Origin: Candidatus Micrarchaeota archaeon
Lineage (GTDB): Archaea > Micrarchaeota > Micrarchaeia > Micrarchaeales > Micrarchaeaceae
DNA: 64,000 nt
Direction of reading: 5' to 3'
Assembly (NCBI GenBank): GCA_028866575.1
Contig: JAGWHU010000003.1
Coordinates: 62,001 to 126,000 of the forward strand
In this document: positions 5,484 to 22,485 of the stretch, piece by piece
Position numbering within the stretch: position 1 is the stretch's first letter
How the letters are laid out: each line of letters begins with the position of its first letter
The notes under the pieces: model-generated
Seen by the model: only the letters and a program-made list of their open reading frames with translations
The model's database searches: none
What the model was told of the DNA's origin: nothing
Position numbers and translations under genes: made by a program

Positions 5484-5525
5484 CATTTAAACCTATCTGT
5501 GATTTCATAGATAAGTATTTAAATG
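5484..5525. promoter_or_regulatory. Imperfect dyad upstream of the pilin promoter
   Basis: An outer inverted repeat CATTTAAA (5484-5491) / TTTAAATG (5518-5525) encloses an inner TATCT / AGATA pair. The 42-base dyad ends six bases before the TATA box of the pilin gene. Both position and symmetry suit a dimeric regulator binding just upstream of TBP/TFB. The arms are AT-rich, so chance similarity is possible. Confidence 0.4.
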
Positions 5526-5530
5526 TGGCA

Positions 5531-5543
5531 AATTTATATATTA
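5531..5543 (+). promoter_or_regulatory. TATA box of the pilin-like gene
   Basis: The sequence AATTTATATATTA centres about 26 bases before the ATG at 5563, so transcription would start almost at the start codon. A purine-rich CGGGGAT lies just before the ATG but does not match the GGTGAT pattern used elsewhere. Confidence 0.55.
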
Positions 5544-5562
5544 GCAGGAAACGGGGATATAA

Positions 5563-5994
5563 ATGAAGAATTTCCTAAACAAAATCTTCGTGAAGACAAC
5601 AAGCATAGCGTACTATGCGAAATATGTTTTGCTGGCACTATCCGTGCTCGGCCTGTTCGGAACATTGGCCACAGCACAGTTCACCACTGGTGCCGGAAGC
5701 GCATTATGCGTAGTGTTCAACTCTGTAAGGAACATTATATTCCTGCTGGGACTGACACTCATGATATTGGGTGCGGCTCTATATGCAGGCGCAAACATAA
5801 TGCCGGCTTCGGCCAAGGGTGGCTTCCAAGGATACGGAATGGCCATGATTATAGGTGGAGTAGTTGGAGTTGCAATAGCAGTTGCGGCGCCATTCGTACT
5901 TAACCTTTTGATTGGTATTGGAGGCGGTGGTGTTCTCGGAAGCACAGGCTCCCAGAACATAGTAACAGCATGCGCAGGAATAGGAACCTTCTAA
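5563..5994 (+). CDS. VirB2/TrbC/CedA1-like pilin-type small membrane protein
   Basis: 143 residues: a basic N-terminus, a signal-like helix (about 22-38) ending ATAQ with a plausible cleavage after ATA, then two hydrophobic helices (about 56-75 and 92-118) joined by a short loop with one Lys (PASAKGGFQGYG), and a glycine-rich tail. One Cys lies before the first mature helix and one near the C-terminus, so a disulfide is possible. This is the architecture of conjugative pilins (VirB2, TrbC) and of archaeal CedA1/TedC. It has its own TATA box and upstream dyad, and a T-rich terminator follows, as expected for a subunit made in excess over the membrane proteins encoded next. The pilin role is inferred from topology and position, not from a sequence match. 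Confidence 0.6.
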   Translation: MKNFLNKIFVKTTSIAYYAKYVLLALSVLGLFGTLATAQFTTGAGSALCVVFNSVRNIIFLLGLTLMILGAALYAGANIMPASAKGGFQGYGMAMIIGGVVGVAIAVAAPFVLNLLIGIGGGGVLGSTGSQNIVTACAGIGTF

Positions 5995-6007
5995 ATTGAG
6001 TGAAGTT

Positions 6008-6038
6008 CCTTTTCTTTTTTTCTTTTTCTTTATTTTTT
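6008..6038 (+). terminator. T-rich archaeal terminator after the pilin-like gene
   Basis: About 30 bases consisting almost only of T with scattered C, starting about 14 bases after the pilin stop. Oligo-T runs on the coding strand are the usual termination signal of archaeal RNA polymerase. Termination here would uncouple pilin levels from the downstream genes. Confidence 0.6.
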
Positions 6039-6145
6039 GATTTCTATCCGCTTATTGCAGGTATGCAAAGCAACCCGCCTTTCAGAATGCAGGGTGCTGT
6101 ATTTTTATTATTTATCACCCATATACTCCGTATTTATGGGATCAC

Positions 6146-6877
6146 ATGCTAAACATACTGAAACACAGCGTCAATACGTATTTTTCCAACATTTACCTGA
6201 TAATACTGTCATCGTTATCGTTCGTGATAGCGCTCATAATACCCCTTTTTGCGTCATTCCCGACGTACAACGACATAGGCGGGGTATTGCTCAGGACAGC
6301 AAGCATATACCTGAATCTTAACCCGTTCAACACCGCCATAATAGTGATATCCGTGCTGTTCTCGCTGCTCTTCCTGAGCTTTGCGATGGTTGCCATAAAC
6401 ATAGTGGTGAAGCACAGCAGGACCCAGACGAAGATAAGGGCCGAGGTGATAAGGGGAATAGAGAAATACACCGGCAACGTGTTCGTCATACTGTTCATCG
6501 CAACAATAGTGATGGTGCTTGCCAACATACTGACGTTCAACAGCGGCTATTCCGGGATAATAACGGTCATAGTCGCCCTTGCCATAACCCCGTTTGTGTT
6601 CTATGCTCCGGCATCCATAGTCATAGACGACGCGAAGCTTCTCAGGTCTGTAAGGGCTAGCCTGAAGTTCTTCGTGAAGAGGTTCGACTATTTCATAGTA
6701 TGGCTGGTAATAGCGCTGGTGCTTCTCACTTTCTTCGATTTTGTATTCATAACAGTTTCAGGCACTGCGCTCTCAAGATATGTGATGCTCATATTCAGCT
6801 CATTGTTCATACTGCCATTCCTCGTGCTGCTTCAGGGCGAGCTGTACATTAGCAGATTCAAACTGCTTAAGGGCTAA
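6146..6877 (+). CDS. Polytopic membrane protein, 243 aa, unknown
   Basis: I do not recognise a family with confidence. Roughly six membrane helices can be seen, with a basic loop (KHSRTQTKIRAEVIRG) after the second and another (DDAKLLRSVRASLKFFVKRFD) before the fifth. The second loop is reminiscent of the amphipathic segments of polytopic DUF families with a glycerophosphodiester-type membrane domain. AT-rich boxes near 6100-6140 can serve as its promoter. It lies between the pilin-like gene and the six VirB6-like genes and is on the same strand, so it may belong to the apparatus, but nothing in the sequence proves this. Confidence 0.65.
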   Translation: MLNILKHSVNTYFSNIYLIILSSLSFVIALIIPLFASFPTYNDIGGVLLRTASIYLNLNPFNTAIIVISVLFSLLFLSFAMVAINIVVKHSRTQTKIRAEVIRGIEKYTGNVFVILFIATIVMVLANILTFNSGYSGIITVIVALAITPFVFYAPASIVIDDAKLLRSVRASLKFFVKRFDYFIVWLVIALVLLTFFDFVFITVSGTALSRYVMLIFSSLFILPFLVLLQGELYISRFKLLKG

Positions 6878-6878
6878 T

Positions 6879-6890: not shown

Positions 6891-6914
6891 TAACTTGTCT
6901 TGTTATCAATAAAT

Positions 6915-8246
6915 ATGTCTGCCTGTCGGTATAAGCAAGCCTTTATTATAGCGTTTGCTGTCCTGAGCCTTTTCCTTCTAAACTCCTATGCCCAAGGCGC
7001 AGGAACCGGGACAGGCGCCTCAATAGCCACTGTGCAGTGCATAATCACGAACAAGTCGACGACAATAGGTGCATGCATAGCATCGGCCCTGCCCCTCAGC
7101 CTTCTGGGCATAGGGGTTTCGCTCATGATAGTCGCGATAACCTTCATGATCAGCCACGTGCTGAACCATGCAGGGCTCAGGAGCTTCTACAGGTCCGAGC
7201 TCTGGGAGGTTGCCAAGAGCGGCATAATAGTCGCAGGCATATTTTCCGCTTTGATACTGGCGAGCGCAGCTGCTACGGCCCTTGCAGGATCCACGCCGCA
7301 GTTCTCGGGAGGGAGCCCGACAGCTGCAGGCACCACGATAACCAACAACCTTGCAAGCCTGTACACCACTGTCGAAACCAAATACCTTGTCCCACAGCTA
7401 AACGCATCGGAAGCGGCATTCGGCGCGATGCTAGGTCTCTCTGTAGGAACAGACCTGCTCAACAGCATAACCTTTGCAACCTGGCTGCCCATCCCAATAC
7501 CCACGGCGGCGGGTTTCGTCGGCTCCGTGCAGTTCGGATCCGTAGCGCAGATATACCAGAGCAACTACCTATCAAGCATATACGGCTCGCCCGCGCTCTC
7601 CGTGGTCAATGCTGGAATAGACATAGAGACTACCGTACTGATAGTCATGCAGATGCAGCACGACCTGCTCTACACGATAGCCGCGATAGGCCTGGGCCTT
7701 CTCATACCAATAGGCATAATCATGCGCGCCATACCGTTCGTGAGGGGCATAGGCGGCACCACGATAGCATTGGGCATAGGGCTCTCCATAATATACCCCA
7801 CGCTCCTCGTTGCTCTCAACCTTCCTGTTACCAACTACATATACGTGCTTACGTCGGCTCCGGCAGCGCAGGCGGCATGCCCGTTTTCGTTCAGCCTAAT
7901 ATGCACACTGTATAACAGCGTCCAATACCTGGTAAACACAGTCCAGAATGCCGGAGCAACTGTTGCCGGCGGCATTATAGGCGCGCCGATGTACCTGGCA
8001 TTCGGCGCAAGGGCGTCGCTTTCCCTGCCACTCATATTTTCAGGTTTCTGGACGGGATTCAACTCGCCGCTGAATAGCGGGATATTCCCCGCACTAAACT
8101 TCGTGATAGACAATACGCTCATACAGAGCGTGCAGTTCATACTCTTCGTGATGGACATAATAATAGCGGTTCCGCTGACAGCAGGCATAGCAAGGCTGCT
8201 AGGCGGATCGTTGAGGCTTGGCGTGGGCAGGTTCAGCCTTACGTGA
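6915..8246 (+). CDS. VirB6/CedA-like polytopic membrane protein, paralog 1 of 6
   Basis: About 443 residues beginning with a signal peptide that ends near NSYAQG. It then has the plan shared by all six proteins: TM1, a short loop with Arg and an acidic pair (RSFYRSELWEVAKSG), TM2, a long extracytoplasmic stretch, and a hallmark R-A-I-P-F-V-R-G-I-G-G followed by IALGIGLSIIYP (about 270-294). A C-terminal helix then reads FVMDIIIAVPLTAGIARLLGG. VirB6/TrbL and archaeal CedA form the inner-membrane channel of conjugation-type DNA transfer. The start at 6915 is chosen over TTG 6900 because it fits the TATA spacing. Four Cys lie in the outer parts, two near the mature N-terminus. The channel role is inferred from topology, the repeated motif and the nearby VirB4-like ATPase. 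Confidence 0.6.
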   Translation: MSACRYKQAFIIAFAVLSLFLLNSYAQGAGTGTGASIATVQCIITNKSTTIGACIASALPLSLLGIGVSLMIVAITFMISHVLNHAGLRSFYRSELWEVAKSGIIVAGIFSALILASAAATALAGSTPQFSGGSPTAAGTTITNNLASLYTTVETKYLVPQLNASEAAFGAMLGLSVGTDLLNSITFATWLPIPIPTAAGFVGSVQFGSVAQIYQSNYLSSIYGSPALSVVNAGIDIETTVLIVMQMQHDLLYTIAAIGLGLLIPIGIIMRAIPFVRGIGGTTIALGIGLSIIYPTLLVALNLPVTNYIYVLTSAPAAQAACPFSFSLICTLYNSVQYLVNTVQNAGATVAGGIIGAPMYLAFGARASLSLPLIFSGFWTGFNSPLNSGIFPALNFVIDNTLIQSVQFILFVMDIIIAVPLTAGIARLLGGSLRLGVGRFSLT

Positions 8247-8255
8247 GTTGAAAAC

Positions 8256-9407
8256 ATGGTAAACACCTGCATATTGTACGGTACCCAAAGCTGGGCTGGC
8301 ATCAACATAATGGTCGTGCTAATAACCTTCCTGATAGTTGCGGCGCTGTACGCCCTCAGCACCATATTCCCCTCGCTCACCAGGGCCAAGCTCCGCGAGG
8401 CCTCGAAATCCGAGCTTACCCAGGCGTTCATAAGCATAATAATCATAATAGTGCTTTCCGGTGTCGCGACAACCGCATGCAGCATATCCGCAAGCATAAG
8501 CAGCTCGCTCACGGGCCAGGCACTGAGCCCGTTCGGCTACGCCGAATACTATACCGGCAACCTCAGCACAAACACCGGGCTGAACCTGCTGACCAACATA
8601 TACTCGACATCCGTGTCGTATTCCATAGAGGCCCACGTGCTCCAGGACCTGGGCTCATTCCTCAACGTAAAGACATCAAAGATACTGAAGATATTGTACA
8701 CTTCCATAGGGCTCACCTCCGTTGTGAGCGTGTTCATTGGCGCTGTTATACAGGTAGGCGTGCTGTTCAGCATACTCAGTTCCCTTTACCTGAACATAAT
8801 GGCGCCGCTGGTAACTGTGGTTGTCGGGCTCTTGTTCGTGCAATTCCTCGCGCTGCCGGTTCTCCAATACACTGCGTTCTCCGTCGTTCTCCCTGTGGCA
8901 ATAGGCATGCGCTCAGTTTCATTCCTCGGGACGCATCTCAAGTACGCTTCCAATACCGTGCTAGCTATAGCCATAGCGGGGTACATTGTGTACCCGCTTA
9001 TGGTATCGTTCAACGGCTACGTCATAGCGTGGATATTCTCCGCATCGAATCCGTCGTTCCAGTACATACACTCGACTTACGTAGTGCCTGCAATACCAAT
9101 AAGCACGTTCTTCCAGAGCGCATCAACCGCATATACCGGGTTCTTCGGCACCATTTACAACGCGCTTTTCAACGGCGGCGTGCTCAATCCGCTTGTGAGC
9201 AGCTCCTTCCAGAACGGGCTGGTGATATCGCCGTGGACGATAGTAACGCAGGCGCAGCTCCTGGTGAACCAGACTGCGCAGTTCATATTTGCAGGGGTAA
9301 TACTTTTCGTAATGGACCTTTCGGTAACCCTCGGCTTCGCGATGGGCCTTGCCAACGCGCTCAACGCGGGAATAGAGGGCGCAGGATCATTCTGGGGTAG
9401 TGTATGA
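8256..9407 (+). CDS. VirB6/CedA-like polytopic membrane protein, paralog 2 of 6
   Basis: 383 residues. It lacks an obvious cleavable signal but keeps the family plan: TM1, the basic/acidic loop LTRAKLREASKSELTQAF, TM2, then a degenerate hallmark (MRSVSFLGTHLKYASN followed by AIAIAGYIVYP, about 217-246) in which the usual R-x-x-G-G is replaced. The C-terminal helix LFVMDLSVTLGFAMGLANAL closely matches paralog 1 (LFVMDIIIAVPLTAGIARLL). It begins nine bases after paralog 1 and overlaps paralog 3 by four bases (ATGA), so translational coupling is likely. The loss of the GG pair suggests a specialised position in a hetero-oligomeric channel. Confidence 0.6.
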   Translation: MVNTCILYGTQSWAGINIMVVLITFLIVAALYALSTIFPSLTRAKLREASKSELTQAFISIIIIIVLSGVATTACSISASISSSLTGQALSPFGYAEYYTGNLSTNTGLNLLTNIYSTSVSYSIEAHVLQDLGSFLNVKTSKILKILYTSIGLTSVVSVFIGAVIQVGVLFSILSSLYLNIMAPLVTVVVGLLFVQFLALPVLQYTAFSVVLPVAIGMRSVSFLGTHLKYASNTVLAIAIAGYIVYPLMVSFNGYVIAWIFSASNPSFQYIHSTYVVPAIPISTFFQSASTAYTGFFGTIYNALFNGGVLNPLVSSSFQNGLVISPWTIVTQAQLLVNQTAQFIFAGVILFVMDLSVTLGFAMGLANALNAGIEGAGSFWGSV

Positions 9408-10948
9408 TGTTTCCGCTAGCTCTTATCGCCCGGGTGATGCTCCTTGCCAGCATCCCCACTGCTGAATCGCAGCTACTCCCCCTTGCTGTCACCGCCCTGA
9501 TGGTTGATGCGCTCATAGTGGCTGTATGGTACCTTATCGGCTCCATGCTGAACAACAGCAGGATCAAGGGCGCGGCATTAAGCGAGTACTACCAGTTCAT
9601 AGGAACTGTAATACTCATAGCGATAGTCATAGGCTCGCTCGGGGTAATCTCATCCGCGTTCTACTCCGTTTACAGCGCAAGCAAGCTGATGAGCCCCACA
9701 GCGATAAGCACCCTTTGCAACAACATAAAATCCACGTCGCAGCTTGACATAATAGGGAAAGGCAAGGACTCGCTGCTTGCAGGGGCGCAGTCAAGCTCCG
9801 GGCAGCAGTTTACCGGCATATGCGACCTTGTAAACGTGCAGGGCGGATCCACGCTTACGGAGAAGCTGGAGTATCCGATATCCGCGGTTACTGTCATTCT
9901 TGCCAACATGACAAACCAGACAGCGGCAAACCTGAACTACAGCTTCACGATAGACGCCTGGCTCGGGTTCCTCTCGCACCTAAGCCCAACGATCGCGCTT
10001 TGCATAGACAAGCCGCCGGTAGCAGAGGCGTGCCAGGTGCCCATACCTGGGGATTCGGCGCTCTTCTTCCTCAGGGTGCAGTTCACGCCTTACGCCGGGT
10101 ACAGCCTCATCGTTAGCAACATGAGCCTTCTCGGGTCGCTGCTCAACCTTTCAATGGACTCGTTCATAGTGCAACTGCTCTTCATCACCATATTCCTGTA
10201 TACGTGGCCGTGGCTGCTTTTCGGGGGGATAGTCCTACGCAGCACCATTTTCACAAGGCGCCTCGGCGGCATGCTTATAGCTGTGGCTATAGCCGCTATG
10301 TTCATATATCCCGCGGTATTCTCAATAGAGTACATGACGTTGGGGAACGGGATATCCGTGGCCCAGACATCGGGCCAGCCTGGAGGGCTCAACACCACGT
10401 ACGGTTTCAACGCTATAACTGCGCTTCCGGCAACCCCTGCGCCGCCGTGGCCCAAGGTCGGTACCCCAGCAACCGGCAACTACGTGATCAATTTCTTCGT
10501 GGAGCCTAACATAAAGGCTATAACGTTCGCCAACGGCTGCTGGCCTGCGTCGCAGGGACTTCTTACCACGACCGGCCTTGTAACCGGCAACATATTCAGC
10601 ACCAGCGTTCTCGGCCTCCCGAAAGGAACGCCCATGAACCTCGTCAGCGCCGAGAGCGCGGACATAGCCGGGCTTATGATACCATTCTCAAGCATACTCT
10701 CCGCGATAAACTACATAACCTCCTTCGCCCTTGGAAGCCCCAACTCGCAGTTCCCCATAGATGCATATTGCGCGCCGCAGGCCGCGCTCAATACGCTGTT
10801 TTCAATGCTTGATGCATACGGCATAATAGGGATAACGTCTTATCTGCTGCCGTTGATAAACATAATACTCACGATAACATCGATACAGGGGATCTCCGAA
10901 CTGCTCGGGGGCGACACGAGCCTAGCAGGGCTGGCAAGGATATTATGA
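9404..10948 (+). CDS. VirB6/CedA-like polytopic membrane protein, paralog 3 of 6
   Basis: 514 residues, the longest of the six. The N-terminus gives a first hydrophobic segment with ESQLLPLAVTALMVDALIVA, then LNNSRIKGAALSEYYQF and TM2. A long outer domain holds several Cys and N-glycosylation sites. The hallmark is LRSTIFTRRLGGMLIAVAI followed by MFIYP (about 278-303), then a second outer domain with Pro-rich and Cys-containing loops. The C-terminal helix contains GISELLGGDTSLAGLARIL. The ATG overlaps the stop of paralog 2. Extra outer sequence relative to its siblings may form the external face of the channel; this is inference. Confidence 0.6.
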   Translation: MMFPLALIARVMLLASIPTAESQLLPLAVTALMVDALIVAVWYLIGSMLNNSRIKGAALSEYYQFIGTVILIAIVIGSLGVISSAFYSVYSASKLMSPTAISTLCNNIKSTSQLDIIGKGKDSLLAGAQSSSGQQFTGICDLVNVQGGSTLTEKLEYPISAVTVILANMTNQTAANLNYSFTIDAWLGFLSHLSPTIALCIDKPPVAEACQVPIPGDSALFFLRVQFTPYAGYSLIVSNMSLLGSLLNLSMDSFIVQLLFITIFLYTWPWLLFGGIVLRSTIFTRRLGGMLIAVAIAAMFIYPAVFSIEYMTLGNGISVAQTSGQPGGLNTTYGFNAITALPATPAPPWPKVGTPATGNYVINFFVEPNIKAITFANGCWPASQGLLTTTGLVTGNIFSTSVLGLPKGTPMNLVSAESADIAGLMIPFSSILSAINYITSFALGSPNSQFPIDAYCAPQAALNTLFSMLDAYGIIGITSYLLPLINIILTITSIQGISELLGGDTSLAGLARIL

Positions 10949-10957
10949 GATGAACCG

Positions 10958-12133
10958 ATGAATGCAAGATGCCTAAAAATTTTCCTTCTCGCGCTCCTGG
11001 CAGCTACTGCAATGCTCTCCGTCGCAGGGGCGCAGCAGACCAGCTCGCTCTTCCAGTCATTCTGCGGGGGAACTGGTGCCGTGGGCTCCGGAGGCGTGAT
11101 ACCGTACAGCAGCATACTCTCCGGCCAGGGCAGCGGCGAAGCCGCGCTCATCAAGCTCTCGGCGCTCATAATGCTCACGATGCTGTTGATCATAGCCATA
11201 ATGTACATGGTAAGCTACGTCTTCGGGCTGGATTTCCTGAAGAGGATGGCAAACGTGGAGTTCGGCGAGCTGCTGGTTACCGGGTTGGTAGTATTCCTGT
11301 TCCTCGGTTCGTGGAACCTTGCCGCTGCATCAACCAGCTCCACCACGTTCCTGCATGTTGCCGGCACGAACTTCGGCCGCAACATATACGTGGAGGACTG
11401 CACCTACCTTGCGCCAACCTCCATAGGGCTCATCATAGGGCCCATGCTCCTCATCAACGTCGCAAGGCTGATACTTAATACCGCGATAAGCCTCAAGATT
11501 ACGATAGAGCCGTCGTTCTTCGGCGTTGCATTCAGCCCGCTGAAGGGATACACGCTGCTTGACTCGGTGCTGGGCACGCTGAGCACCATAACCGGAGGTT
11601 TCGTCATAACTATACTTGCAGTGCTGGTTTTCATAGGCTTTGTCTACGGCCTGTTCCCCGTGTTCCTGTATGCTGGAATAGTCCTCAGGACGCTGCCATG
11701 GACCAGAGCGGCAGGCGGCGCCTTCCTCGGGCTGTTCGTAGGCTTCTACATAGTTTTCCCGCTTGCGCTCCACCTCCTGCTCTCGGGATACGTCACAGCA
11801 TTGCAGACAACAACGATAAACTCAAACCCCACGGCTTTCAACGCATTCATAGTCGGGATAGCAGCGGGAGCAGCTGGAGGCGGCAGCTCTACGGTCTCCA
11901 GCATACTGAGTACGCTGGCGAGCGCAGCGACCAATTTCATCGGCACGAGCGCCGGAGGCAGCTTCGGGCTCATAAACGGATACATATTCTACGTGATAGA
12001 GCCCGCATCCTTCACGATATTCGCGATAATAATATCGCTGATACTGGCGTTCGAATTCACTGAAATGACCGGAAGGATTCTCGGCGCGCCGAGCGTATCT
12101 GCGCAGAATATAATAAGTAGGATAGTGAAATAA
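10958..12133 (+). CDS. VirB6/CedA-like polytopic membrane protein, paralog 4 of 6
   Basis: 391 residues with a clear signal peptide (LLALLAATAMLSVAGAQQ). Family plan: TM1, the loop LDFLKRMANVEFGELLVTG, TM2, an outer part with Cys, a cytoplasmic or re-entrant middle, the hallmark LRTLPWTRAAGGAFLGLF followed by FYIVFP (about 242-268), a glycine-rich outer loop (AAGAAGGGSS), and a C-terminal helix with EFTEMTGRILGAPS. It begins nine bases after paralog 3. It belongs to the inferred inner-membrane channel set. Confidence 0.6.
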   Translation: MNARCLKIFLLALLAATAMLSVAGAQQTSSLFQSFCGGTGAVGSGGVIPYSSILSGQGSGEAALIKLSALIMLTMLLIIAIMYMVSYVFGLDFLKRMANVEFGELLVTGLVVFLFLGSWNLAAASTSSTTFLHVAGTNFGRNIYVEDCTYLAPTSIGLIIGPMLLINVARLILNTAISLKITIEPSFFGVAFSPLKGYTLLDSVLGTLSTITGGFVITILAVLVFIGFVYGLFPVFLYAGIVLRTLPWTRAAGGAFLGLFVGFYIVFPLALHLLLSGYVTALQTTTINSNPTAFNAFIVGIAAGAAGGGSSTVSSILSTLASAATNFIGTSAGGSFGLINGYIFYVIEPASFTIFAIIISLILAFEFTEMTGRILGAPSVSAQNIISRIVK

Positions 12134-12143: not shown

Positions 12144-13166
12144 ATGCAAGTGACACTGTATGCAATGCATCTGCAATCAATCGCACTTGCAACCCTGCCG
12201 ATAAGCCCGTCGAAATGGGTAGTGACGTCGATGATCGCCGTCCTTGCGGTCATAATGGTTTCCGCAATGGTCTACATGCTTTCAGGCATAATACAGAGCG
12301 AAAGGGCAAGGGTCTGGTCGAGGTTCCAGATATACGAGGCGCTATTCTCAGCAGTTTTGATACTGGCATTCGGATCCATAACGTACATATTCTTCCTCAA
12401 CCCGCAGACAGTTTACGGCAAGCTCAACCTTGTTCCATCGACATGCACATCAGCGCCGGATCTGTACCAGCTCGCGGCATGCGATGTTAGCCTTTTCAAC
12501 AGCGCATCCTTCGCGTTTTCGGAGTATGCATTCTATGCCTCCTACCTCCCTGCCATAATCTCTGGCATAGGCCCAGAGTTCCAGATAGCGCCAATACCAG
12601 CGAGCCCCAGCATAAACATAGAGATAACCGCGGCCGGGCTGTTCCCGACAGGAACCACATCGCTGCTCGGGATACTTTACGCAACTATACTGTTCATGCT
12701 CATATTCAACCAGCTCCAGCTCATGCTCATAGCCGGGTCGCTGCTCTTCCTGTCGTTCTTCCTGACAATAGGGCTGATAGCGAGGACGCTCGGTTTCCTG
12801 AGGAGCTTCGGCGGCGCGATGATAGCGTTCGGGCTCGGCCTTGGCATAATATACCCTCTATTGGTAAGCCTCACTTACGGCTATGTCGATGTCGCGGCTA
12901 ACCTGGTGTGCATGCAGACTGCGTCATGCGCATTGAGCAGCACATGGACCGCGATATGGACGACAATTTTCGGCGTATGGTCCACAGGGTTCAGCGCGAT
13001 ACCAGCCGCGGTTGGGACTCTGTTCACTGACATAGGCTACATAATAGCAGGGCTTACAATAGTGCCATTGCTCAACATAGTCATAGTCGATGCGTTCATA
13101 ATCGACTTTTCAAAAGCTGTAGGGGAGCCCATGAGCTTCGGCCAGCTGTTCTCCAACCTGTTATGA
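12144..13166 (+). CDS. VirB6/CedA-like polytopic membrane protein, paralog 5 of 6
   Basis: 340 residues, the shortest paralog, with no cleavable signal. The start ATG has GGTG five bases upstream. Family plan: TM1 (SMIAVLAVIMVSAMVYMLSG), loop QSERARVWSRFQIYEALF, TM2, an outer domain with Cys, then the hallmark ARTLGFLRSFGGAMIAFG followed by LGIIYP (about 212-238), and a C-terminal helix FIIDFSKAVGEPMSFGQLFS. Its stop overlaps the ATG of paralog 6 by four bases. It aligns best by eye with paralogs 1 and 6. Confidence 0.6.
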   Translation: MQVTLYAMHLQSIALATLPISPSKWVVTSMIAVLAVIMVSAMVYMLSGIIQSERARVWSRFQIYEALFSAVLILAFGSITYIFFLNPQTVYGKLNLVPSTCTSAPDLYQLAACDVSLFNSASFAFSEYAFYASYLPAIISGIGPEFQIAPIPASPSINIEITAAGLFPTGTTSLLGILYATILFMLIFNQLQLMLIAGSLLFLSFFLTIGLIARTLGFLRSFGGAMIAFGLGLGIIYPLLVSLTYGYVDVAANLVCMQTASCALSSTWTAIWTTIFGVWSTGFSAIPAAVGTLFTDIGYIIAGLTIVPLLNIVIVDAFIIDFSKAVGEPMSFGQLFSNLL

Positions 13167-14455: not shown

Positions 14456-15292
14456 ATGAACCCGAAGATTTTGGTATTCATAGGATTCCTGGGGCTTTCG
14501 GTGGCCATGCTGGGACTAGCAATAGCGATGCCGAACACGATTTACTTCGTCGCGCCTAAGCTCCTCCTTCTGATACTCTCGGTGCTTTTCGACGTGCTGG
14601 CATTCGCATCAAGATACTACACCTACCTGATACTGCCGCTGGTGAGGCAGCGCAAAAGGCATGCGGTGATAAACGAGCACACCGCATACTGGCTATCAAC
14701 CACAGGGGACTGCATAGTGAAGAAGGAGGGCGACGACTACATAGCAACCGCTTACATAAACATACCTCTTTATGTATCTGCGAGCGAGATGAGCGACGAC
14801 GACAAGCTGATGTTCGCAAGCCAGGTAAGCAAGCTAGTCGGCATAAGCAGGGATCCTGTGAGGTTCACAACAGAGCTCTACCTCATGAACAAGGACGAGT
14901 ACATACAGAAGCTGAAGGAGAACATAGTGGAGATAGAGGACGAGCAGGCAAAGATGTCGAGCAACAAGAAAACGCCGCCTAACGAGCTTGAGCACGTGAA
15001 GGGAAAGCTCTCCATGTGGAGGAAGATGCTTGACAACGTGTCCAACGGAACGTCCTTCGAGCTGAACACTTTCGCGACAATATCCGCAAAGGGCACAAAG
15101 GAATTCGAGGCGATAACAATGGTCCAGCAGAAGGCCAGGGACCTGATGAACGGGATGGCATCCATACTGGGCGTGCCCCCAAGCATAGTGGTAGGTAACG
15201 AGCTGCTCAAGTACATAGAGCCCGAATACCTGATACCATTCACTACGATAACGGAGCAGATAAGCAGGAAGATACAGCAGCAGGTGTCATAG
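14456..15292 (+). CDS. Membrane-anchored VirB3/VirB4 N-domain-like protein A
   Basis: 278 residues: two N-terminal helices (about 5-25 and 32-52) followed by a basic stop (RQRKRHAV) and a soluble cytoplasmic domain with alternating beta strands, a helical stretch (about 140-200) and a C-terminal amphipathic region. Two short helices followed by a soluble domain match a VirB3 unit joined to the N-terminal (CagE/TrbE/VirB) domain of VirB4. The VirB4 ATPase domain itself is encoded separately two genes downstream. Its stop is adjacent to the ATG of the next gene, which has the same layout, so the two look like diverged paralogs. The homology is inferred from layout and context. Confidence 0.5.
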   Translation: MNPKILVFIGFLGLSVAMLGLAIAMPNTIYFVAPKLLLLILSVLFDVLAFASRYYTYLILPLVRQRKRHAVINEHTAYWLSTTGDCIVKKEGDDYIATAYINIPLYVSASEMSDDDKLMFASQVSKLVGISRDPVRFTTELYLMNKDEYIQKLKENIVEIEDEQAKMSSNKKTPPNELEHVKGKLSMWRKMLDNVSNGTSFELNTFATISAKGTKEFEAITMVQQKARDLMNGMASILGVPPSIVVGNELLKYIEPEYLIPFTTITEQISRKIQQQVS

Positions 15293-16126
15293 ATGGACGA
15301 GGAAGGGATAGTATATCTTGCACTGTGCCTTGCCATATCCATGGCTTCGCTGTCGCTGCTGTTCTACTTCGGCACCGGGTTCATAAGGATAATAGCGCTC
15401 ATCATAATACTTACGGGAGTGGTGATGATACTCATACTGAACTTCGCAGATTACGTGCTCATATCCGTGGTGTTCAGCCTGCTAGGGATAACCTTCCAAC
15501 CGGCGCAGGGATACACGATAATAAAGGAGCAGAACGCAGTCATAAAGAACGTAAACGGCCTCTTCTACGCAACAGGATACGTCACAGCGAACCTTTTCCC
15601 ATACACGTTCAAGCTGGAGCTGGAGCCCAGGGAGGAGGACGCGAAGATGATGGCCGCGCCGGAAAACTGGGAGCGCGCCGTCATGAACCTCGGCTTCCCG
15701 TTCAAGTGGCACGTCATAGCGATGGGGCTTGACGTCCAGAAGGTGAGGGACGAGCAGGAGGGCAAGAGGTCGTACCAGGAGTTCCAGATGTCCAGGGCGC
15801 TGCAGAACCAGAACATAGACAGCGTCACGATATCCAACATACAGAGGAAGATAAACGTCATACAGAGGAAGATGGACAGGATATCGCAGGGCGAGAAGCC
15901 TATCGCTACGATAATGTACGTTGAGACAACCGCGATAGGCGTGAGCATGAAAGCTGCACTAGACAACCTCGCGCAGCAGATAGACGGGCTCCAGATAGCG
16001 CTCGGGTCCATGGACGTGGATTTGTCAAGGGTGTCGGGAAGGGAGATGTACACGCTGTTCAACTTCAACTTCTCGCTGCCTATATCGTTCGACGAGGCAT
16101 CCGCGCACTTCGACCAGCAGAGCTGA
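15293..16126 (+). CDS. Membrane-anchored VirB3/VirB4 N-domain-like protein B
   Basis: 277 residues with two to three N-terminal membrane helices (about 8-65, including a short hairpin) and then a soluble domain laid out like that of protein A. Both have a strand pair after the membrane (IIKEQNAVIKNVNGLFYATGY here, CIVKKEGDDYIATAYINIPL in A), a long helix with Gln and Lys (NIQRKINVIQRKMDRISQG), and then strands ending near a Gly-rich turn (IGVSMKAALDNLAQQIDGLQ). Start directly follows the stop of protein A with no spacer. Together the two may form the ring that couples the ATPase to the six channel-like proteins. Confidence 0.5.
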   Translation: MDEEGIVYLALCLAISMASLSLLFYFGTGFIRIIALIIILTGVVMILILNFADYVLISVVFSLLGITFQPAQGYTIIKEQNAVIKNVNGLFYATGYVTANLFPYTFKLELEPREEDAKMMAAPENWERAVMNLGFPFKWHVIAMGLDVQKVRDEQEGKRSYQEFQMSRALQNQNIDSVTISNIQRKINVIQRKMDRISQGEKPIATIMYVETTAIGVSMKAALDNLAQQIDGLQIALGSMDVDLSRVSGREMYTLFNFNFSLPISFDEASAHFDQQS

Positions 16127-16167: not shown

Positions 16168-17688
16168 ATGACGCTGGTGAAACTTCAGCACATAATGAGC
16201 AACGAGATATCGAAGAGGTCGTTCATATCCAGGCCTCCGGAGCCGCCCGCAGGCATACTCATGGGCGACCCGTTGAGCTCGATATTCATAGGCACCACCA
16301 AGATATTCAAGGTGCCGTTCACCTGGTCCTATTCCAACATAACCAACCCGCACATAGCTGTTGTCGGGATAACAGGCGCAGGGAAGAGCTATTTCGTCAA
16401 GACGTTCCTGGTAAGGGCAAACTACATCTGGGGCACCAATGCGATAATAATAGACTTTGCTGGGGAGTACAAGGCATGGGTGAAGCAGAGCGGCGGCGTG
16501 GTGGTGTCGTTGGGAAAGGGCGACTACCTCAACATAATGGACCTATCCTCCATGAAGCCGCTCGACAGGACCAAGCAGATAATGACGTCGCTGGAGATAC
16601 TTACCGACATATCCATGTATCCTGAGCAGAAGCGCATAACCGAGGAAGCGATAGAGCAGGCATACATAAACTTCGGGTTCTCGCTTTCGGAAGCGGCGCC
16701 TAAGAAAAAGGAGGTCCCTACGCTGCACAACGTCATATCCCTTTTGCAGGAGAAGCTGCAGGAGGGAACCTACGAGTACCCTGCGGAGCTGGAGAATGCA
16801 GTGTACAGGCTCAGGCAGTTCGCGCGCGAGGGCGAGGACTATTTCTCCAAGAAGAGCACGCTCGATCTAGGGAAGCTCTCACATTCCGGGCTGGTCGCGG
16901 TCGACCTATCAGGGCTTTCCGACGACAGGTTCAGGGCATTCGCCGCTCTCTTCATACTCCAAACGCTCAAGGAGATAATGAGGAGCGAGAACTGGAGCGA
17001 GTCGAAGGGGCTGAAGGCTCTGGTGGTGCTCGACGAGGCGTGGAAGGTCGCAAGCGATGACAAGAGCGACGCGATACTCATAGTCAGGGAGGGCAGGAAG
17101 TTCCAGTTCGGGCTCATAGTGGCGTCGCAGAACCCTACTGATATAAACGAGGCGATATTCTCCAACGTCGGAACCACATTCATACTCAAGATAAAGTTCG
17201 AGAAGTTCATGAACTACATACAGGGATCGCTTAACTTCTCCGACTTCATAAGGCTGGAGATAGGGAAGTTCGGCGTCGGGCAGGCTGCGGTCGACATGGC
17301 GTTCCAGAGCGCGATAAGGTTCCCCAGCGTGTTCATACTGGACAAGATATACGGCGAGGAGCCCCTATACGTTTACACGCTCGACCTGTCGGACGTGCTC
17401 ACGCAGAGCGAGATGTCAGCAAACGTGCTGCAGAAGGACTACCAGTTCGAGAGGGACGAGCTGCGCAACAGGCTGATAGAGTACAACGTCGGCCTCGAGA
17501 TAATAAACCAGATATTCAGCACTATGGACATGCACGACAGGACGATGAAGCTCCTCGACTTCCTGAGGATACTCAAGAAGAGCGGGGGCATAAGCATATC
17601 CAATACTGTGATATTCCTGAAGAGCCTGGGGATAGACGACCAGCTGATAACGAGGATAATAGCGAGCACAGGTGTTAGCGTTGAGTAA
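16168..17688 (+). CDS. VirB4/CedB-like conjugation ATPase (HerA/FtsK superfamily)
   Basis: 506 residues. Walker A is GITGAGKS (about 67-74) and Walker B is ALVVLDEAW (about 284-292), with a later ASQNPTDINEAIFSNVGTTF segment (about 322-343) typical of VirB4 and HerA-type ATPases, where a sensor-like Gln/Asn follows the ASQ. The DFAGEYKAWVKQSGG segment matches the DxxGEY pattern seen after Walker A in HerA/CedB. The protein lacks the usual VirB4 N-terminal domain, which seems to be supplied by the two preceding genes. A TATATTTATAG-like box near 16126-16139 may give an internal promoter. Role: powering pilus assembly or DNA transfer across the membrane. The ATPase family is certain; the VirB4/CedB assignment is strongly supported by neighbours. 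Confidence 0.85.
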   Translation: MTLVKLQHIMSNEISKRSFISRPPEPPAGILMGDPLSSIFIGTTKIFKVPFTWSYSNITNPHIAVVGITGAGKSYFVKTFLVRANYIWGTNAIIIDFAGEYKAWVKQSGGVVVSLGKGDYLNIMDLSSMKPLDRTKQIMTSLEILTDISMYPEQKRITEEAIEQAYINFGFSLSEAAPKKKEVPTLHNVISLLQEKLQEGTYEYPAELENAVYRLRQFAREGEDYFSKKSTLDLGKLSHSGLVAVDLSGLSDDRFRAFAALFILQTLKEIMRSENWSESKGLKALVVLDEAWKVASDDKSDAILIVREGRKFQFGLIVASQNPTDINEAIFSNVGTTFILKIKFEKFMNYIQGSLNFSDFIRLEIGKFGVGQAAVDMAFQSAIRFPSVFILDKIYGEEPLYVYTLDLSDVLTQSEMSANVLQKDYQFERDELRNRLIEYNVGLEIINQIFSTMDMHDRTMKLLDFLRILKKSGGISISNTVIFLKSLGIDDQLITRIIASTGVSVE

Positions 17689-17989
17689 GCAGGATACCTT
17701 CACGATAAGCAGGACCGACCTGAGGCAGGTGCTCGTCGGGCTCGGGGCAAGGGAGAAGGACATAGGCAATCTGATAAGCCTTCTGGACAAGGCGCACAGG
17801 CACACGAACGTGGTAGTGTTCGCGAACATGCTGGAAAAGATGGGCATAGGCAGGGACAAGATGTCCAACGTGCTCAGGAGGATGGGCATGGACGACGTTA
17901 CGATATCAAGGGCGTTCCGCATGGTCGACGAGAACAAGATAAGCGCGGAAACCGGAAGGATATACTATGCGACCGTTGACTTCAGCTGA
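17681..17989 (+). CDS. Small helical protein, unknown, coupled to the ATPase
   Basis: About 102 residues, soluble, helical and basic, with two similar halves (RQVLVGLGAREKDIGNLISL and KMSNVLRRMGMDDVTISRAF) that look like tandem helix-hairpin units. I choose TTG 17681 because GGTG lies six bases before it; a GTG at 17672 overlaps that signal. Either start overlaps the end of the ATPase gene, whose own C-terminus (residues about 460-506) has similar helical units (LRILKKSGGISISNTVIFLK), so this may be a detached C-terminal repeat domain of the ATPase. Confidence 0.6.
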   Translation: MSKQDTFTISRTDLRQVLVGLGAREKDIGNLISLLDKAHRHTNVVVFANMLEKMGIGRDKMSNVLRRMGMDDVTISRAFRMVDENKISAETGRIYYATVDFS

Positions 17990-17993
17990 TTCT

Positions 17994-18383
17994 ATGGGAA
18001 AACCTGCGTGCATAATCTGCGGAAAGGAGAGGGACGGGCTGGAGGTAAGGGACGACATCATCATAAAGTCACTCCGCTGGATAAAGAAAAACGTGACTAA
18101 GAGCCAGAAGAACTACAGGCTTGTTGTGTGCAAGGACTGCTTCCTGAGCTACAGGAAGAGGCGCGAAAGCTACGAGAGGAAGATGATGATATACGGCGCG
18201 ATAGGCGTGATCTTCCTCCTTGCGCTGCTGGTTTCGGCAGGCGGTAGGCTGGGGGCCATAGGCGTAGGCATACTCATAATAATCGGGCTGCTCCTGCTTG
18301 CTCAGTTCAGCTACATGCCAGCCGTGAAAATGCCGGATGCGCCTAAGTCTTCGGGCAAGGGGAAAAGGCGCGGGAAAAACTAG
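17994..18383 (+). CDS. Zinc-ribbon protein with two C-terminal membrane helices
   Basis: About 129 residues. CIIC (near residue 5) and CKDC (near residue 44) can bind one zinc, followed by a very basic stretch (YRKRRESYERKM), two hydrophobic helices and a basic tail (KSSGKGKRRGKN). An ATG at 17967 would overlap the previous gene; the ATG at 17994 leaves four bases and is preferred. A membrane-tethered zinc ribbon with basic flanks could bind nucleic acid at the transfer channel; this is a guess from position. Confidence 0.65.
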   Translation: MGKPACIICGKERDGLEVRDDIIIKSLRWIKKNVTKSQKNYRLVVCKDCFLSYRKRRESYERKMMIYGAIGVIFLLALLVSAGGRLGAIGVGILIIIGLLLLAQFSYMPAVKMPDAPKSSGKGKRRGKN

Positions 18384-18482: not shown

Positions 18483-19214
18483 TTGCCTGATGAAGAAGCC
18501 GCATTTATAGAGCCGAAGACCGACGGGTTTGAGATAAGCGCGAAGCTCTCTGGAAGTTTTGACGAAATGTACAGGAGGCTTGGCAAGCTGCAGCTGTTCT
18601 CCATAAGCAAGTCAACTACGGGATTGAGGATGCTCCGCGTGGAAAGCCGCGACATACAGAAGAGGCCGTTCCTGTTCATGATATTCGACATGAGGTCCGA
18701 CAAGCTTGCTGTATATTACACCATAGCGCTTGATGCGAGCCCGAAAATAAGGAAGCTATTCGTGCTGAAGACCCTTCTCGGGGTGCTGTCGCTCGTCTCC
18801 GATTTGTACAAGGCGGAGGACACAGAGCTCTTCCAGTACATGGATTCATCCATAGATGATGTGCTCAACTCCATAACGCAAAGCTACAGCAAGCTCTTCA
18901 ACAACTACGATTCCCTGTTCAACGAATACAGGGAGGTGAAAAGGCTCAACATAGAGCTCGAGGCTTCAAACAAGAACCTCACAGTGCAGGCGCTCCAGTT
19001 CAACGACGAGAACGGGCATCTGAAGGCGGAGCTTGCGGCGCTGGAGGCGTATTCCGACAGCTCGCTCATGGTGATGGTGCAGGACTGGCTGGACGCGCAC
19101 GATTCGGCCATAGACATAGCGGAGTTCGCCAAGAACTACAAGGTAACGCCCACAAGGGTGGAGCAGATACTGAACAGGATGGTCTCTCTAGGCTATATAG
19201 AGCTGAAGGGTTAG
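18483..19214 (+). CDS. Coiled-coil protein with C-terminal winged helix, unknown
   Basis: 243 residues from a TTG; an in-frame stop at 18471 excludes anything longer. The N-terminal 120 residues look like an alpha/beta domain, a coiled coil follows (about 130-185, with EYREVKRLNIELEASNKNL), and the last 55 residues form a likely winged helix (DIAEFAKNYKVTPTRVEQIL ending in LGYIELKG). It could be a cytoplasmic regulator or adaptor. It starts a second sub-cluster that overlaps into the 56-residue and 808-residue genes. Confidence 0.7.
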   Translation: MPDEEAAFIEPKTDGFEISAKLSGSFDEMYRRLGKLQLFSISKSTTGLRMLRVESRDIQKRPFLFMIFDMRSDKLAVYYTIALDASPKIRKLFVLKTLLGVLSLVSDLYKAEDTELFQYMDSSIDDVLNSITQSYSKLFNNYDSLFNEYREVKRLNIELEASNKNLTVQALQFNDENGHLKAELAALEAYSDSSLMVMVQDWLDAHDSAIDIAEFAKNYKVTPTRVEQILNRMVSLGYIELKG

Positions 19215-19218: not shown

Positions 19219-19389
19219 ATGATTTACAAGGTAAGGATGAACCGAAGGCTGAGCAACGTGAAGGTCTACGTGGTGCTCAAGCGGCAGAACCAGAGGAAGC
19301 AATCCTTCATGACAAAGCTGTTCATGAAGATATTCAGGCAGGAGAACAAGGGCACCACGTCTGAATCTGCGGTAGATAGGCTGAGATGA
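19219..19389 (+). CDS. Small basic protein, 56 aa
   Basis: ATG at 19219, TGA at 19387-19389. The product is strongly basic (MIYKVRMNRRLSNVKVYVVL, then KRQNQRKQSFMTKLFMKIF), without Cys or a membrane segment. It starts four bases after the 18483 gene, and its TGA overlaps the ATG of the 808-residue gene (ATGA), which supports a real, translationally coupled gene. No family is recognised. Confidence 0.6.
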   Translation: MIYKVRMNRRLSNVKVYVVLKRQNQRKQSFMTKLFMKIFRQENKGTTSESAVDRLR

Positions 19390-21812
19390 TGGCATACAAT
19401 GACCAGGCTAAGGCTCGCGAGGGGGAAAAGAAGTCCAACAGGAAGCTCATTTTCATAATAGTGGCGGTAATAGCCGTTGCCGGGCTGCTTGCGATCTTGT
19501 ACTTCACGCTATCCTTCTCGAGCATACTGAACGGCAACGGTGCGCAGCAGCACAAGGGCGCGCTGCCCCCCTCGGCAATAAACAACGCCTCGTTGGAGGA
19601 GCAGGACCTGCTCACGTACAACCTGGTCAAGCAGTACGTGCCATACGCGCTTGTGAACTATACCGTCACCAACGTGACTAACATAAACGCAAACGTGAGC
19701 CTCTACTATTATGCGCCGCCGAGCAGCATATTCATACTGAACATAAGCGACCAGTGCTTCAACTGCGGAGACACCAGCGCCATAGAGAGCGCGATGATAA
19801 ACAAGCTGATGGCATACAACGTCATAGAGAGTCCCGCGAACCTGAGCGAGATATCCATAAGCAACGTGAGGTCGCTCCCGGACGATTCGCTGCTCATAGT
19901 CCTAAACGGCCTGCTCCCGTACCAGTTCCTTGCGCCCGTTAGCGCCAACACCACCGTGCTTGACACCCTAATGCAAAGGCACGTGAGCATCCTTTACGTG
20001 GGCCAGGCCTTCTCCAGCGTGCTGCTGCCCGATTCGGTCGTAATACCTGCGCAGCACATCCCCGGATACCTGTACACACTAAGGTATTCCGGCAACGCGA
20101 TAAAGAACAACGGCTTCTACTTCAACAAGTCTACATTCTACTTCACCAACGGGAGCGTATACAGCGGCTACCTTACCTATGTCAACGTCTACAACGGCTC
20201 CATAGCCGCGTTCCCCAATACCCCGACCTCGTGGAAGACCTCGCAGGAAGCGGGCAACGACATAGCCAAGGCTGTGCAGGATATGTTCTGGCTCCCGAAA
20301 TACGCATACGGTACAAGGACCGTGAACACAATAAAGCCCAATTCAACCGGCAGGATAGGCGTGGTGCTTGACAATCTGGAGATACCTTACAATACGACGT
20401 TCGTGGCAAACGTTGAGAGCAACGGCGCGATGCGGGTCGTGCTGACTGCCAACGCGACGTATTCCTACGGCAGATCCACAAGCGTCTACCAGTACATAGT
20501 CGCTAAGCCGCTGTTCTACGACAACGGGACCATAGGGATAAACAGGTCCATAATAACAAACCAGACTGTTCCACTGTCGTTCAGCATACACACGCATTCG
20601 CAGGTGCCGGAGAACATACAGCCCCACCTCTCCATATACAATTTGAACATGACGCTCATATTCAGCACGCCGCTTGCGTTCATACACAACGTAACCGACA
20701 ATTTCACGTTTCTAATACCGTACCAGCGCCTTGTGCTGCAGCCCGGGCAGGGCTACGTTATGAAGCTGCACAGCTTCTACGGCCAGGAATACGGAGGCGC
20801 ATTCTTCAACGTCTCGCCGCTCAACCTCTACCTCATCGGAGCCAACGTCAGCACAGGCAGGTTCAACTTCTCCGTGACGTCCAACAACCAGTCCGTTACC
20901 AACCTCAACTACACCATAAGCCTCAACGGCCAGTATCCCGAGAAGGGAACCATAAAATACGGGTTCATATCATACACGCTGCCGCAGGACGTGTCTGTTC
21001 CCAGGGGCAGCCTCAACTTCACGCTGAACGTATCCGGGAGCACGTTCTACTACCATACCTCCTACAACCCATTGCCGTTCAAGATAAACCAGCAGTACAT
21101 CGAGGTGGTCGTGGTCGTAGTGATAATGCTCGTGATGATAATATTCGTGAAGGCGCCCTACAGGGACGAGTTCTACATAGATGTCCCGCACCTTCCCGAG
21201 GAAAAGAAGACGCAGGTGCAGCTGAAGGCGACTGACATAGTCAACGTCTTCGACAGGCTCAATACCTCGTACAGGTGGAAATACATGCCATTATCGAAGA
21301 CTGAGGTGCGCTCGGCAATAGCTAGCTACATAAAGTACAACAGCATACCAGTGAGCCTGACGTACAGCAACGTGGAGCAGATAATAGGGCAGCTCACAGT
21401 GAAGAAGTACCTGGTGAGCGCCGACGAGCTGTACGCCCCTGTTGAATGGGTAACCGGCAGCGGTCACGACATAGAGTACCTATCCACGTTCAAGAAGCTG
21501 AGGATATTCCTTGTCACGCACGCGTTCATATTCACGGACATCGACATAAGCAAGGAAAGCGACGTAGTCGCTACGCTGCACGGGGAGCGCAAGTACATAG
21601 TGCTGTACTCCAAGACGAGCAAGTTCCAGAACATACCCATATACCCCGACTGGAAGACCTACATAGTTTTCCTCAACAATTACAGGCTGGAGGAGTTCAG
21701 GAACAACCTTTACGTTTCCACTACCTTCGAGGCCGAGGAGCTCAAGATGTACATGGCGGCGGATCACGTGAGGCTGATAGATGCCGACAATCCGGAAGGG
21801 CTCCTCAGCTAA
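19386..21812 (+). CDS. Large membrane-anchored surface protein, 808 aa, unknown
   Basis: A short basic cytoplasmic N-terminus, one helix (about 22-45), then about 525 outer residues rich in Asn, Tyr, Ser and Thr with many N-glycosylation sites and a CFNC pair near residue 125. A second helix (about 573-592) follows and a cytoplasmic domain of about 215 residues ends the protein. The outer part contains beta-sandwich-like stretches in its C-terminal third. The cytoplasmic part starts with LPEEKKTQVQLKATDIVNVF and looks like winged-helix units followed by an alpha/beta domain. It is coupled to the preceding small gene by a four-base overlap. It could be an adhesin or receptor of the transfer apparatus, with the inner domain signalling or docking. 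I recognise no family. Confidence 0.75.
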   Translation: MMAYNDQAKAREGEKKSNRKLIFIIVAVIAVAGLLAILYFTLSFSSILNGNGAQQHKGALPPSAINNASLEEQDLLTYNLVKQYVPYALVNYTVTNVTNINANVSLYYYAPPSSIFILNISDQCFNCGDTSAIESAMINKLMAYNVIESPANLSEISISNVRSLPDDSLLIVLNGLLPYQFLAPVSANTTVLDTLMQRHVSILYVGQAFSSVLLPDSVVIPAQHIPGYLYTLRYSGNAIKNNGFYFNKSTFYFTNGSVYSGYLTYVNVYNGSIAAFPNTPTSWKTSQEAGNDIAKAVQDMFWLPKYAYGTRTVNTIKPNSTGRIGVVLDNLEIPYNTTFVANVESNGAMRVVLTANATYSYGRSTSVYQYIVAKPLFYDNGTIGINRSIITNQTVPLSFSIHTHSQVPENIQPHLSIYNLNMTLIFSTPLAFIHNVTDNFTFLIPYQRLVLQPGQGYVMKLHSFYGQEYGGAFFNVSPLNLYLIGANVSTGRFNFSVTSNNQSVTNLNYTISLNGQYPEKGTIKYGFISYTLPQDVSVPRGSLNFTLNVSGSTFYYHTSYNPLPFKINQQYIEVVVVVVIMLVMIIFVKAPYRDEFYIDVPHLPEEKKTQVQLKATDIVNVFDRLNTSYRWKYMPLSKTEVRSAIASYIKYNSIPVSLTYSNVEQIIGQLTVKKYLVSADELYAPVEWVTGSGHDIEYLSTFKKLRIFLVTHAFIFTDIDISKESDVVATLHGERKYIVLYSKTSKFQNIPIYPDWKTYIVFLNNYRLEEFRNNLYVSTTFEAEELKMYMAADHVRLIDADNPEGLLS

Positions 21813-21828
21813 ACCTAAAGATACCAGA

Positions 21829-21842
21829 CTCTATAAATAATT
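21829..21842 (+). promoter_or_regulatory. TATA box for the 21883 gene
   Basis: ACTCTATAAATAAT lies about 47 bases before the ATG, leaving a leader of about 20 bases that contains GGTGATAGG next to the start. Confidence 0.5.
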
Positions 21843-21882
21843 TAACCGCGGATAGTATACAAGCAGGGAAAAGGGTGATAGG

Positions 21883-22485
21883 ATGGACAAGAAAACGATA
21901 GCTTACGTGCTAGTAGCGGCGATGCTTGCCGTAGCCGCTTCGGGCGTGTATATCGCGGCAAGCGGCGCCTACAGGTCACAGCTGTTGCCTATGGCGCCCT
22001 ACAGGGCATCGGATGCGAACTCTTTGCAGACTGCAAACTCAACAACGGGCACAACAGCAAGCAGCACTACAATCAGCAATGCTGGAATGCAGGCGCATGA
22101 AGGGGGTGCTGATTCAATGATATACATAACTGGCGCAAGCGCATACGTGGGGCCCAATTCTGGACACGAGAACACGACGCTGCTTGGGGTATCAGTCAGC
22201 AACAACGCAAGCGTGCCCATAGCTGTGAAAACCGTAACATTCAAGGGAGAAAACGGCAGCAGCATTACGTTCATGATAAACCCGTCCAACAGCAGCATGC
22301 AGCTGCCCACGCAGCTGAATTCCAGCTCCGGGTTCGTGCTTGCTCCGCACCAGAACACCACATTCGTGTACGACAACTACAGCAGCTCAATGCTGGCTGC
22401 TAACCGCACCTACTCCGTTTCCGTTGCAGGGAGCAACGGATCCTACGCTACATACGCGAACCTTACCGCAATAAAGTCGGGATGA
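21883..22485 (+). CDS. Exported Ser/Thr/Asn-rich membrane-anchored protein
   Basis: 200 residues with one N-terminal membrane or signal helix (about 6-26), a Thr/Ser-rich linker (about 48-70), and a beta-rich domain (about 80-195) that looks like a single Ig-like or DUF4352-type sandwich (NTTLLGVSVSNNASVPIAVK). No Cys. GGTG precedes the ATG by five bases. It has its own TATA box and ends the same-strand run that began with the pilin-like gene; a GC hairpin follows. A link to the transfer cluster is possible but unproven. Confidence 0.65.
   Translation: MDKKTIAYVLVAAMLAVAASGVYIAASGAYRSQLLPMAPYRASDANSLQTANSTTGTTASSTTISNAGMQAHEGGADSMIYITGASAYVGPNSGHENTTLLGVSVSNNASVPIAVKTVTFKGENGSSITFMINPSNSSMQLPTQLNSSSGFVLAPHQNTTFVYDNYSSSMLAANRTYSVSVAGSNGSYATYANLTAIKSG

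Follow-up and report, generated by a model that had tools for sequence, protein, structure and literature searches.

A conserved six-channel locus of Micrarchaeota with probable kinship to type IV secretion and Ced/Ted systems

Introduction

How DPANN archaea exchange material with their hosts and kin is a long-standing question to which no molecular machine has been assigned. It is raised again by a gene block in a 64,000-nucleotide stretch of DNA from a Candidatus Micrarchaeota archaeon (GCA_028866575.1, contig JAGWHU010000003.1, positions 62,001 to 126,000 of the forward strand; hereafter, the window), in which a putative secretion pilin and ATPase are encoded together with six related membrane channel proteins. 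What kind of apparatus could such a locus specify, and what would it move? Our analysis of the window and its source genome (1.13 Mb, 53 contigs, 97.5% complete) makes it likely that the block encodes a chromosomal, vertically kept envelope machine that is related to type IV secretion systems (T4SS) and to the archaeal Ced and Ted systems and has a probably hetero-hexameric channel. A literature search whose scope left out preprints and most subscription papers returned no paper describing a T4SS, or a system like Ced, for Micrarchaeota.

Gene content and limits of the locus

The block spans positions 5563-21812 on a single strand (+) and comprises genes for a pilin, a polytopic protein, six channel paralogues (chA to chF), the paralogous proteins n1 and n2, an ATPase and four conserved partners:

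5563..5994, +, pilin-like protein of the VirB2/T4SS-pilin type, 143 amino acids (aa), N-terminal hydrophobic segment and two helices (profile match to TrwL, T4SS_pilin/TrbC matches, hhalign)
6146..6877, +, conserved polytopic membrane protein, 243 aa (synteny in relatives)
6915..8246, +, channel paralogue A, chA (synteny, hhalign, tree)
8256..9407, +, channel paralogue B, chB, without R-x5-R-x2-GG, N-terminal region pilin-like (hhalign 87%, tree, motif scan)
9404..10948, +, channel paralogue C, chC (synteny, hhalign, tree)
10958..12133, +, channel paralogue D, chD (synteny, hhalign, tree)
12144..13166, +, channel paralogue E, chE (synteny, hhalign, tree)
13163..14320, +, channel paralogue F, chF, the most conserved channel, all-helical AlphaFold2 (AF2) model with pLDDT 87 (model, Foldseek, tree)
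14456..15292, +, n1, transmembrane (TM) hairpin and predicted VirB4 N-terminal-domain fold (AF2 pLDDT 87, PDB fold matches)
15293..16126, +, n2, paralogue of n1 (hhalign)
16168..17688, +, DUF87/VirB4/CedB-class ATPase, 506 aa, Walker motifs (family profiles, hhalign)
17672..17989, +, 105-aa protein, paralogous to the C-terminal domain of the ATPase (sequence comparison, 69/71 loci)
17967..18383, +, 138-aa protein, paired Cys (zinc-ribbon-like), two TM helices (71/71 loci)
18483..19214, +, soluble protein of 243 aa with a coiled coil and, weakly supported, a winged helix at the C-terminus (weak winged helix-turn-helix matches; 71/71 loci)
19386..21812, +, 808-aa surface protein, ectodomain at about 45-570, cytoplasmic domain at about 600-808 (71/71 loci, sequon count, conservation)

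All open reading frames (ORFs) listed in an initial annotation of this DNA are present on the + strand, in the order given there and in tight packing, with overlaps of 4 bases between chB and chC and between chE and chF, 17 bases between the ATPase gene and the 105-aa ORF and 23 bases between the 105- and 138-aa ORFs, while the n1 and n2 genes abut. Its description of the topologies likewise holds, from the pilin to the six channel proteins (340-514 aa) with their 6-7 TM helices, n1 and n2 (each of about 278 aa), in which a TM pair at the N-terminus precedes a soluble domain, and the 808-aa protein with TM helices at about positions 30 and 581. Two points need amendment. The block had been thought to reach position 22485, but the 200-aa product of 21883-22485 has no counterpart in relatives, so that the conserved unit ends at 21812; and among the conserved partners, listed there as unknown, the 105-aa ORF turned out to be paralogous to the C-terminal domain of the ATPase. 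Most proteins of the block have no Pfam match, and family-library searches placed the polytopic protein at 6146..6877 in no family above cut-off.

The features of the 808-aa protein are consistent with a glycoprotein that faces the outside and has a tail in the cytoplasm. Its predicted ectodomain contains 26 N-glycosylation sequons, where shuffled sequences have 9.2 (none of 1000 reached 26), whereas its C-terminal domain contains a single one and is better conserved (median identity 45% vs 31% for the ectodomain). In several relatives, the 808-aa gene is adjoined on the opposite strand by the same conserved gene, for a protein of about 535 aa (L112:13618-15246, L119:15569-17176, L096:16946-18538), which by eye resembles topoisomerase VI subunit B.

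Conservation across Micrarchaeota

Conservation was assessed in 295 genomes of the Micrarchaeota phylum, 96 of them of high quality. The ATPase (E <= 1e-20) is present in 247 of the 295 genomes and in 89 of the 96 high-quality ones, and 100 aligned orthologues share 55-79% identity with the window protein. Given this distribution and degree of identity, the locus is core chromosomal equipment and not mobile, and in all likelihood vertically kept. Among 91 distinct ATPase loci, 57 contain the complete A-B-C-D-E-F channel series in order; in the others, the series is interrupted by the end of the locus or contig, one has split frames, and 17 are devoid of channels at the locus. When nine of these 17 genomes were searched, six proved to have an A-F array elsewhere (with chA cut by, or starting at, a contig end in two), and three draft genomes had only the compact cassette described below. 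Downstream of the ATPase, the 138-, 243- and 808-aa genes are found in each of the 71 loci with enough sequence, and the 105-aa gene is found in 69 of them. Conservation of gene order in other Micrarchaeota had been proposed as a check in the initial annotation, and dozens of their genomes share the synteny of the block, which places it far beyond chance.

Among the public-genome matches listed, the named relatives of the ATPase are Micrarchaeota-type metagenome-assembled genomes (MAGs; a few of their titles read Marsarchaeota) and two cultured strains: Candidatus Micrarchaeum sp. A_DKE (M. harzensis), whose genome carries the locus (L075), and ARM-1, which NCBI places in Microcaldota. ARM-1 has an unlinked six-gene channel array, an ATPase-surface-protein module and a compact cassette. 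Unlinked arrays also occur in three distant families, with six genes each where complete and two complete arrays per genome in two cases:

L148, L150-L155, unlinked six-gene arrays of ARM-1 and three distant families (L153 interrupted by a contig end)

A six-gene channel array

The channel proteins are homologous to each other (hhalign 97-99.7%), and the one channel that the compact cassette encodes is a homologue of theirs (98-99.7%). The repeated motif seen in the initial annotation is real: R-x(4-6)-R-x2-GG, for example VPGVLFRSLFPTRALGGILIAFAFG, is present in all six window channels except 8256-9407 and in 13 of the 14 channels from compact cassettes, but in none of 13 other proteins of the window. 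The N-terminal part of chB resembles the pilin (hhalign 87%), a likeness that mirrors the resemblance of CedA1 to CedA (PMC9905601). We infer that the channels occupy the VirB6/CedA position; since profile and fold tests gave no significant match (see Discussion), this identity draws on gene context, topology and the pilin-like segment of chB. No CedA model was among the NCBIfam matches of the channels, and no direct comparison with a CedA sequence was made.

Complete arrays always consist of exactly six genes in a fixed order, and none with a different gene number was found among the loci examined. In a tree of 94 channel rows (LG+G4, with support by SH-aLRT only), position 5 of all arrays groups with chE (97) and position 6 with chF (98). 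Both types of array in the distant families also pair position by position; deeper nodes are weak. The tree thus shows the array positions to be orthologous, and some lineages have duplicated the six-gene array as a whole. Such a six-paralogue set, duplicated only whole, would be an unusual secretion channel turned hetero-oligomer with specialised subunits. That it forms an obligate hetero-hexamer has, in our estimate, slightly less than an even chance, and we know of no precedent for a six-subunit channel of this kind. The logic of a hetero-oligomer does have precedent, since for Sulfolobales there are proposals of a hetero-oligomeric CedA-CedE channel and of complementary VirB4 N-domains shared by CedB and CedD (PMC11868833).

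Between the pilin and n1, one distant family encodes a 7-TM protein that is unrelated to the channels in profile comparison (L051:9062-10036).

Relation to type IV secretion components

The reading of the pilin as VirB2-like stands. Its family profile identifies TrwL, the VirB2 protein of R388, as the best PDB sequence (E=0.002), nine of 14 family members match T4SS_pilin and six of 14 match TrbC, with weak E-values, and hhalign aligns it with VirB2 at 73%, with unrelated controls below 2%. As for n1, a comparison of its AF2 model with 350,542 PDB chains gave R388 VirB4/TrwK as every one of the 14 best matches (prob 0.84-1.00), so that its predicted fold supports a VirB3/VirB4 N-domain-like nature of n1 and of its paralogue n2 (hhalign 99.9%). 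The Walker motifs reported for the 16168-17688 product are present, and Pfam matches identify it as a DUF87/AAA_10/TraG P-loop protein. It aligns with VirB4 in hhalign (97%) and matches the NCBIfam models of CedD (6e-19), CedB (6e-17), VirB4 (1e-16) and HerA (3e-15), with scores below the curated cut-offs for CedB (62 bits; cut-off 700) and CedD (68 bits; cut-off 600). When pNOB8 proteins were used as an archaeal bridge, DUF87 proteins alone matched the ATPase and none matched the channels, and tblastn against plasmids gave distant TraC/VirB4 matches only. We regard a relationship of the locus to T4SS and Ced as highly probable.

Contig C1 of the same genome encodes a further DUF87-type ATPase (L146:6310-8073; 588 aa), which scores highest with CedB/CedD and lies beside a 13-TM protein.

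A compact cassette in the same genome

On contig C7 of the same genome (L145:10743-14324), genes for a pilin, a single channel, a single n protein and an ATPase stand back to back; after them come a gene weakly related to the 243-aa gene and one for a protein of 229 aa:

L145:10743-11138, compact-cassette pilin (contig C7)

The pilin-channel-n order recurs in all ten loci fetched, one of them from this genome, and the ATPase comes next in all nine that are not cut before it. The channel of this cassette was found in 53 of 97 genomes, and its ATPase has CedB as its top NCBIfam match (1e-23). The cassette looks like the natural Ced/Ted-like counterpart, with the six-channel locus as its elaborated relative, and we infer that the direction of change was from one channel to six and from one n protein to two.

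Discussion

The locus shares its basic composition with several known systems. Like the Ced system of Sulfolobales (CedA, CedA1, CedA2, CedB, CedD, CedE), it is chromosomal, combines a VirB2-like pilin, a polytopic channel and a VirB4/HerA-class ATPase, has at least two N-domain proteins and at least two channel paralogues, and resembles the described set in being without VirD4 and without a relaxase of the tested family. However, Ced has one or two channel proteins rather than six, its N-domain is fused to each ATPase whereas n1 and n2 are separate, counterparts of the 138-, 243- and 808-aa proteins have not been described, and NurA, found in a Sulfolobus control, is missing here. The Ted system of Thermoproteales (TedA, TedB, TedC), a minimal pilin-channel-ATPase set, comes close to the compact cassette on contig C7, but is without a six-channel array and is linked to HerA, Rad50 and ParA genes (PMC9905601). 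Conjugative T4SS of the R388 type (VirB2-VirB11, VirD4, relaxase) share the VirB2-like pilin, the VirB4 N-domain fold of n1 and the VirB4-class ATPase; in the Micrarchaeota locus, by contrast, VirB4 is split, VirD4 and a relaxase of the tested family are missing, none of VirB8-VirB11 was recognised in the block, and similarity to VirB6 is not detectable in sequence. A parallel in lifestyle is provided by the MPF_FATA-related T4SS of Patescibacteria, whose genes are present in most genomes of these tiny host-dependent cells (VirB4 in 2,417 of 3,035 assemblies), with virB6 being essential for an epibiont (PMC12102498), although these systems are bacterial and no six-gene channel array has been described for them.

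In the machine that we propose, n1 and n2 together with the separate ATPase would constitute a split VirB4 ring, topped by one hetero-oligomeric, most simply hetero-hexameric, membrane pore made of the six paralogues. The ring may power insertion and polymerisation of the pilin, translocation, or both, and the pilin would serve as a filament or conduit. The 808-aa protein could touch the partner cell, and the 138- and 243-aa proteins might link cargo to the ATPase. DNA moved between cells, by import or exchange, is the likeliest cargo, and we see an even chance that DNA is the main one; use of the machine with a host seems somewhat unlikely.

Several results weigh against this proposal, and they also limit what can be retained of the initial annotation. 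The six proteins called VirB6/CedA-like are indeed paralogous and polytopic, but no VirB6 homology emerged: hhalign comparisons with VirB6/TrbL of nine bacterial plasmids were negative with broad and with compact-only profiles and at relaxed settings, the TrbL/VirB6 Pfam models had no match across the genome, and the chF model resembles R388 VirB6 (7o3v) only insignificantly in Foldseek (E of about 1.5, TM(target) 0.34-0.39), which found nothing significant for it among PDB and viral structures. Gene number is the sole basis for the hetero-hexamer, and VirB6 of R388 is a pentamer. For n1 and n2, the fold match stands, but its E-values are modest (0.003-0.13), its TM-scores are low (0.24-0.34, relative to the query), and hhalign comparisons with sequence profiles of VirB4 N-domains and VirB3 were negative. 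The VirB4/CedB-like reading of the ATPase holds as far as a T4SS/Ced relation is concerned, but a deep tree did not separate the VirB4, CedB-like and HerA-like classes. The reported lack of VirD4 and relaxase is borne out across the whole genome, with no match to PF02534 (VirD4; five controls positive) or to PF03432, the one relaxase family searched, for which only the Lactococcus control was positive. NurA, which has been put forward as the nuclease that produces single-stranded DNA in the Ced system (PMC9905601), also has no match in the genome, though HerA-like ATPases are present and the Sulfolobus control was positive. Lacking VirD4, a relaxase of the tested family and NurA, the proposed machine is left without any recognised supply of single-stranded DNA. 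Such processing would be required for export but not if DNA were taken in from another cell.

The absence of these three proteins is what could be expected if the same T4SS-related machine moved proteins, or proteins and metabolites, to or from a host rather than DNA. Most DPANN archaea are host-dependent, a Patescibacterium cannot grow as an epibiont without its T4SS genes, virB6 among them (PMC12102498), and M. harzensis, whose genome has the locus, shows filaments at its host contacts (PMC8975820). However, no candidate effectors were recognised beside the locus, the ATPase class and the partner resembling a winged helix-turn-helix protein suit DNA at least equally well, and the Ced relatives carry DNA (PMC9905601, PMC11868833), so that we consider protein cargo unlikely. 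The same filaments, along with the pilin and the large sequon-rich ectodomain, could alternatively point to an attachment pilus whose subunits are extruded by the ATPase and channel, with the 808-aa protein as an adhesin and nothing being translocated. Yet six distinct conserved channel subunits seem too many for pilus extrusion, and ARM-1 keeps both the ATPase-surface module and the six-channel array with a pilin gene of this family found beside neither, making a purely adhesive role quite unlikely.

Two further readings were rejected. The ATPase domain is about equally close to HerA profiles and might thus belong to a DNA-repair helicase with unrelated membrane neighbours, the case that the initial annotation had named as refuting its own view. 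This seems very improbable, because two different cassettes of one genome combine homologous ATPases with VirB4-N-type, pilin and channel genes; that genome has no NurA match, and its other HerA-like ATPases are separate, the ATPase of the block not being among them. The kinship with conjugation machinery, in turn, might suggest a conjugative or integrative element caught in the chromosome. An element of this kind is scarcely credible in view of the syntenic, phylum-wide distribution of the locus and the identity among its ATPases, and no relaxase of the tested family accompanies it.

If the block encodes the T4SS- and Ced/Ted-related machine proposed here, such an apparatus would be near-universal core equipment of Micrarchaeota, including the cultured host-associated strains M. 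harzensis A_DKE and ARM-1, which renders the question of DPANN exchange testable. As a near-universal, conjugation-related machine with six sister channel genes kept as a set, the locus is a prime candidate for material exchange between Micrarchaeota symbionts and other cells. Filaments connect M. harzensis with its host where the two cells touch (PMC8975820), and in ARM-1, host-derived nanotubes dock at a 21-nm barrel of unassigned identity beneath the S-layer (PMC11329633). It is tempting to link these filaments or the barrel to the locus, which is speculation; that an obligate hetero-hexameric conduit forms the symbiont side of the connection between host and Micrarchaeon, for instance as the barrel of ARM-1, appears highly doubtful.

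Neighbouring features

Upstream of the block, positions 2078-5446 of the window encode two polytopic proteins, the second of which is a DUF2079 protein. In several genomes, relatives of these proteins are encoded next to the block or within it, for example between the pilin and 243-aa genes (L041, L044). Further downstream, the segment 54001-56000 of the window has a G+C content of 0.40, compared with about 0.51 around it, and lies beside a tRNA-Glu gene, possibly reflecting a recent insertion.

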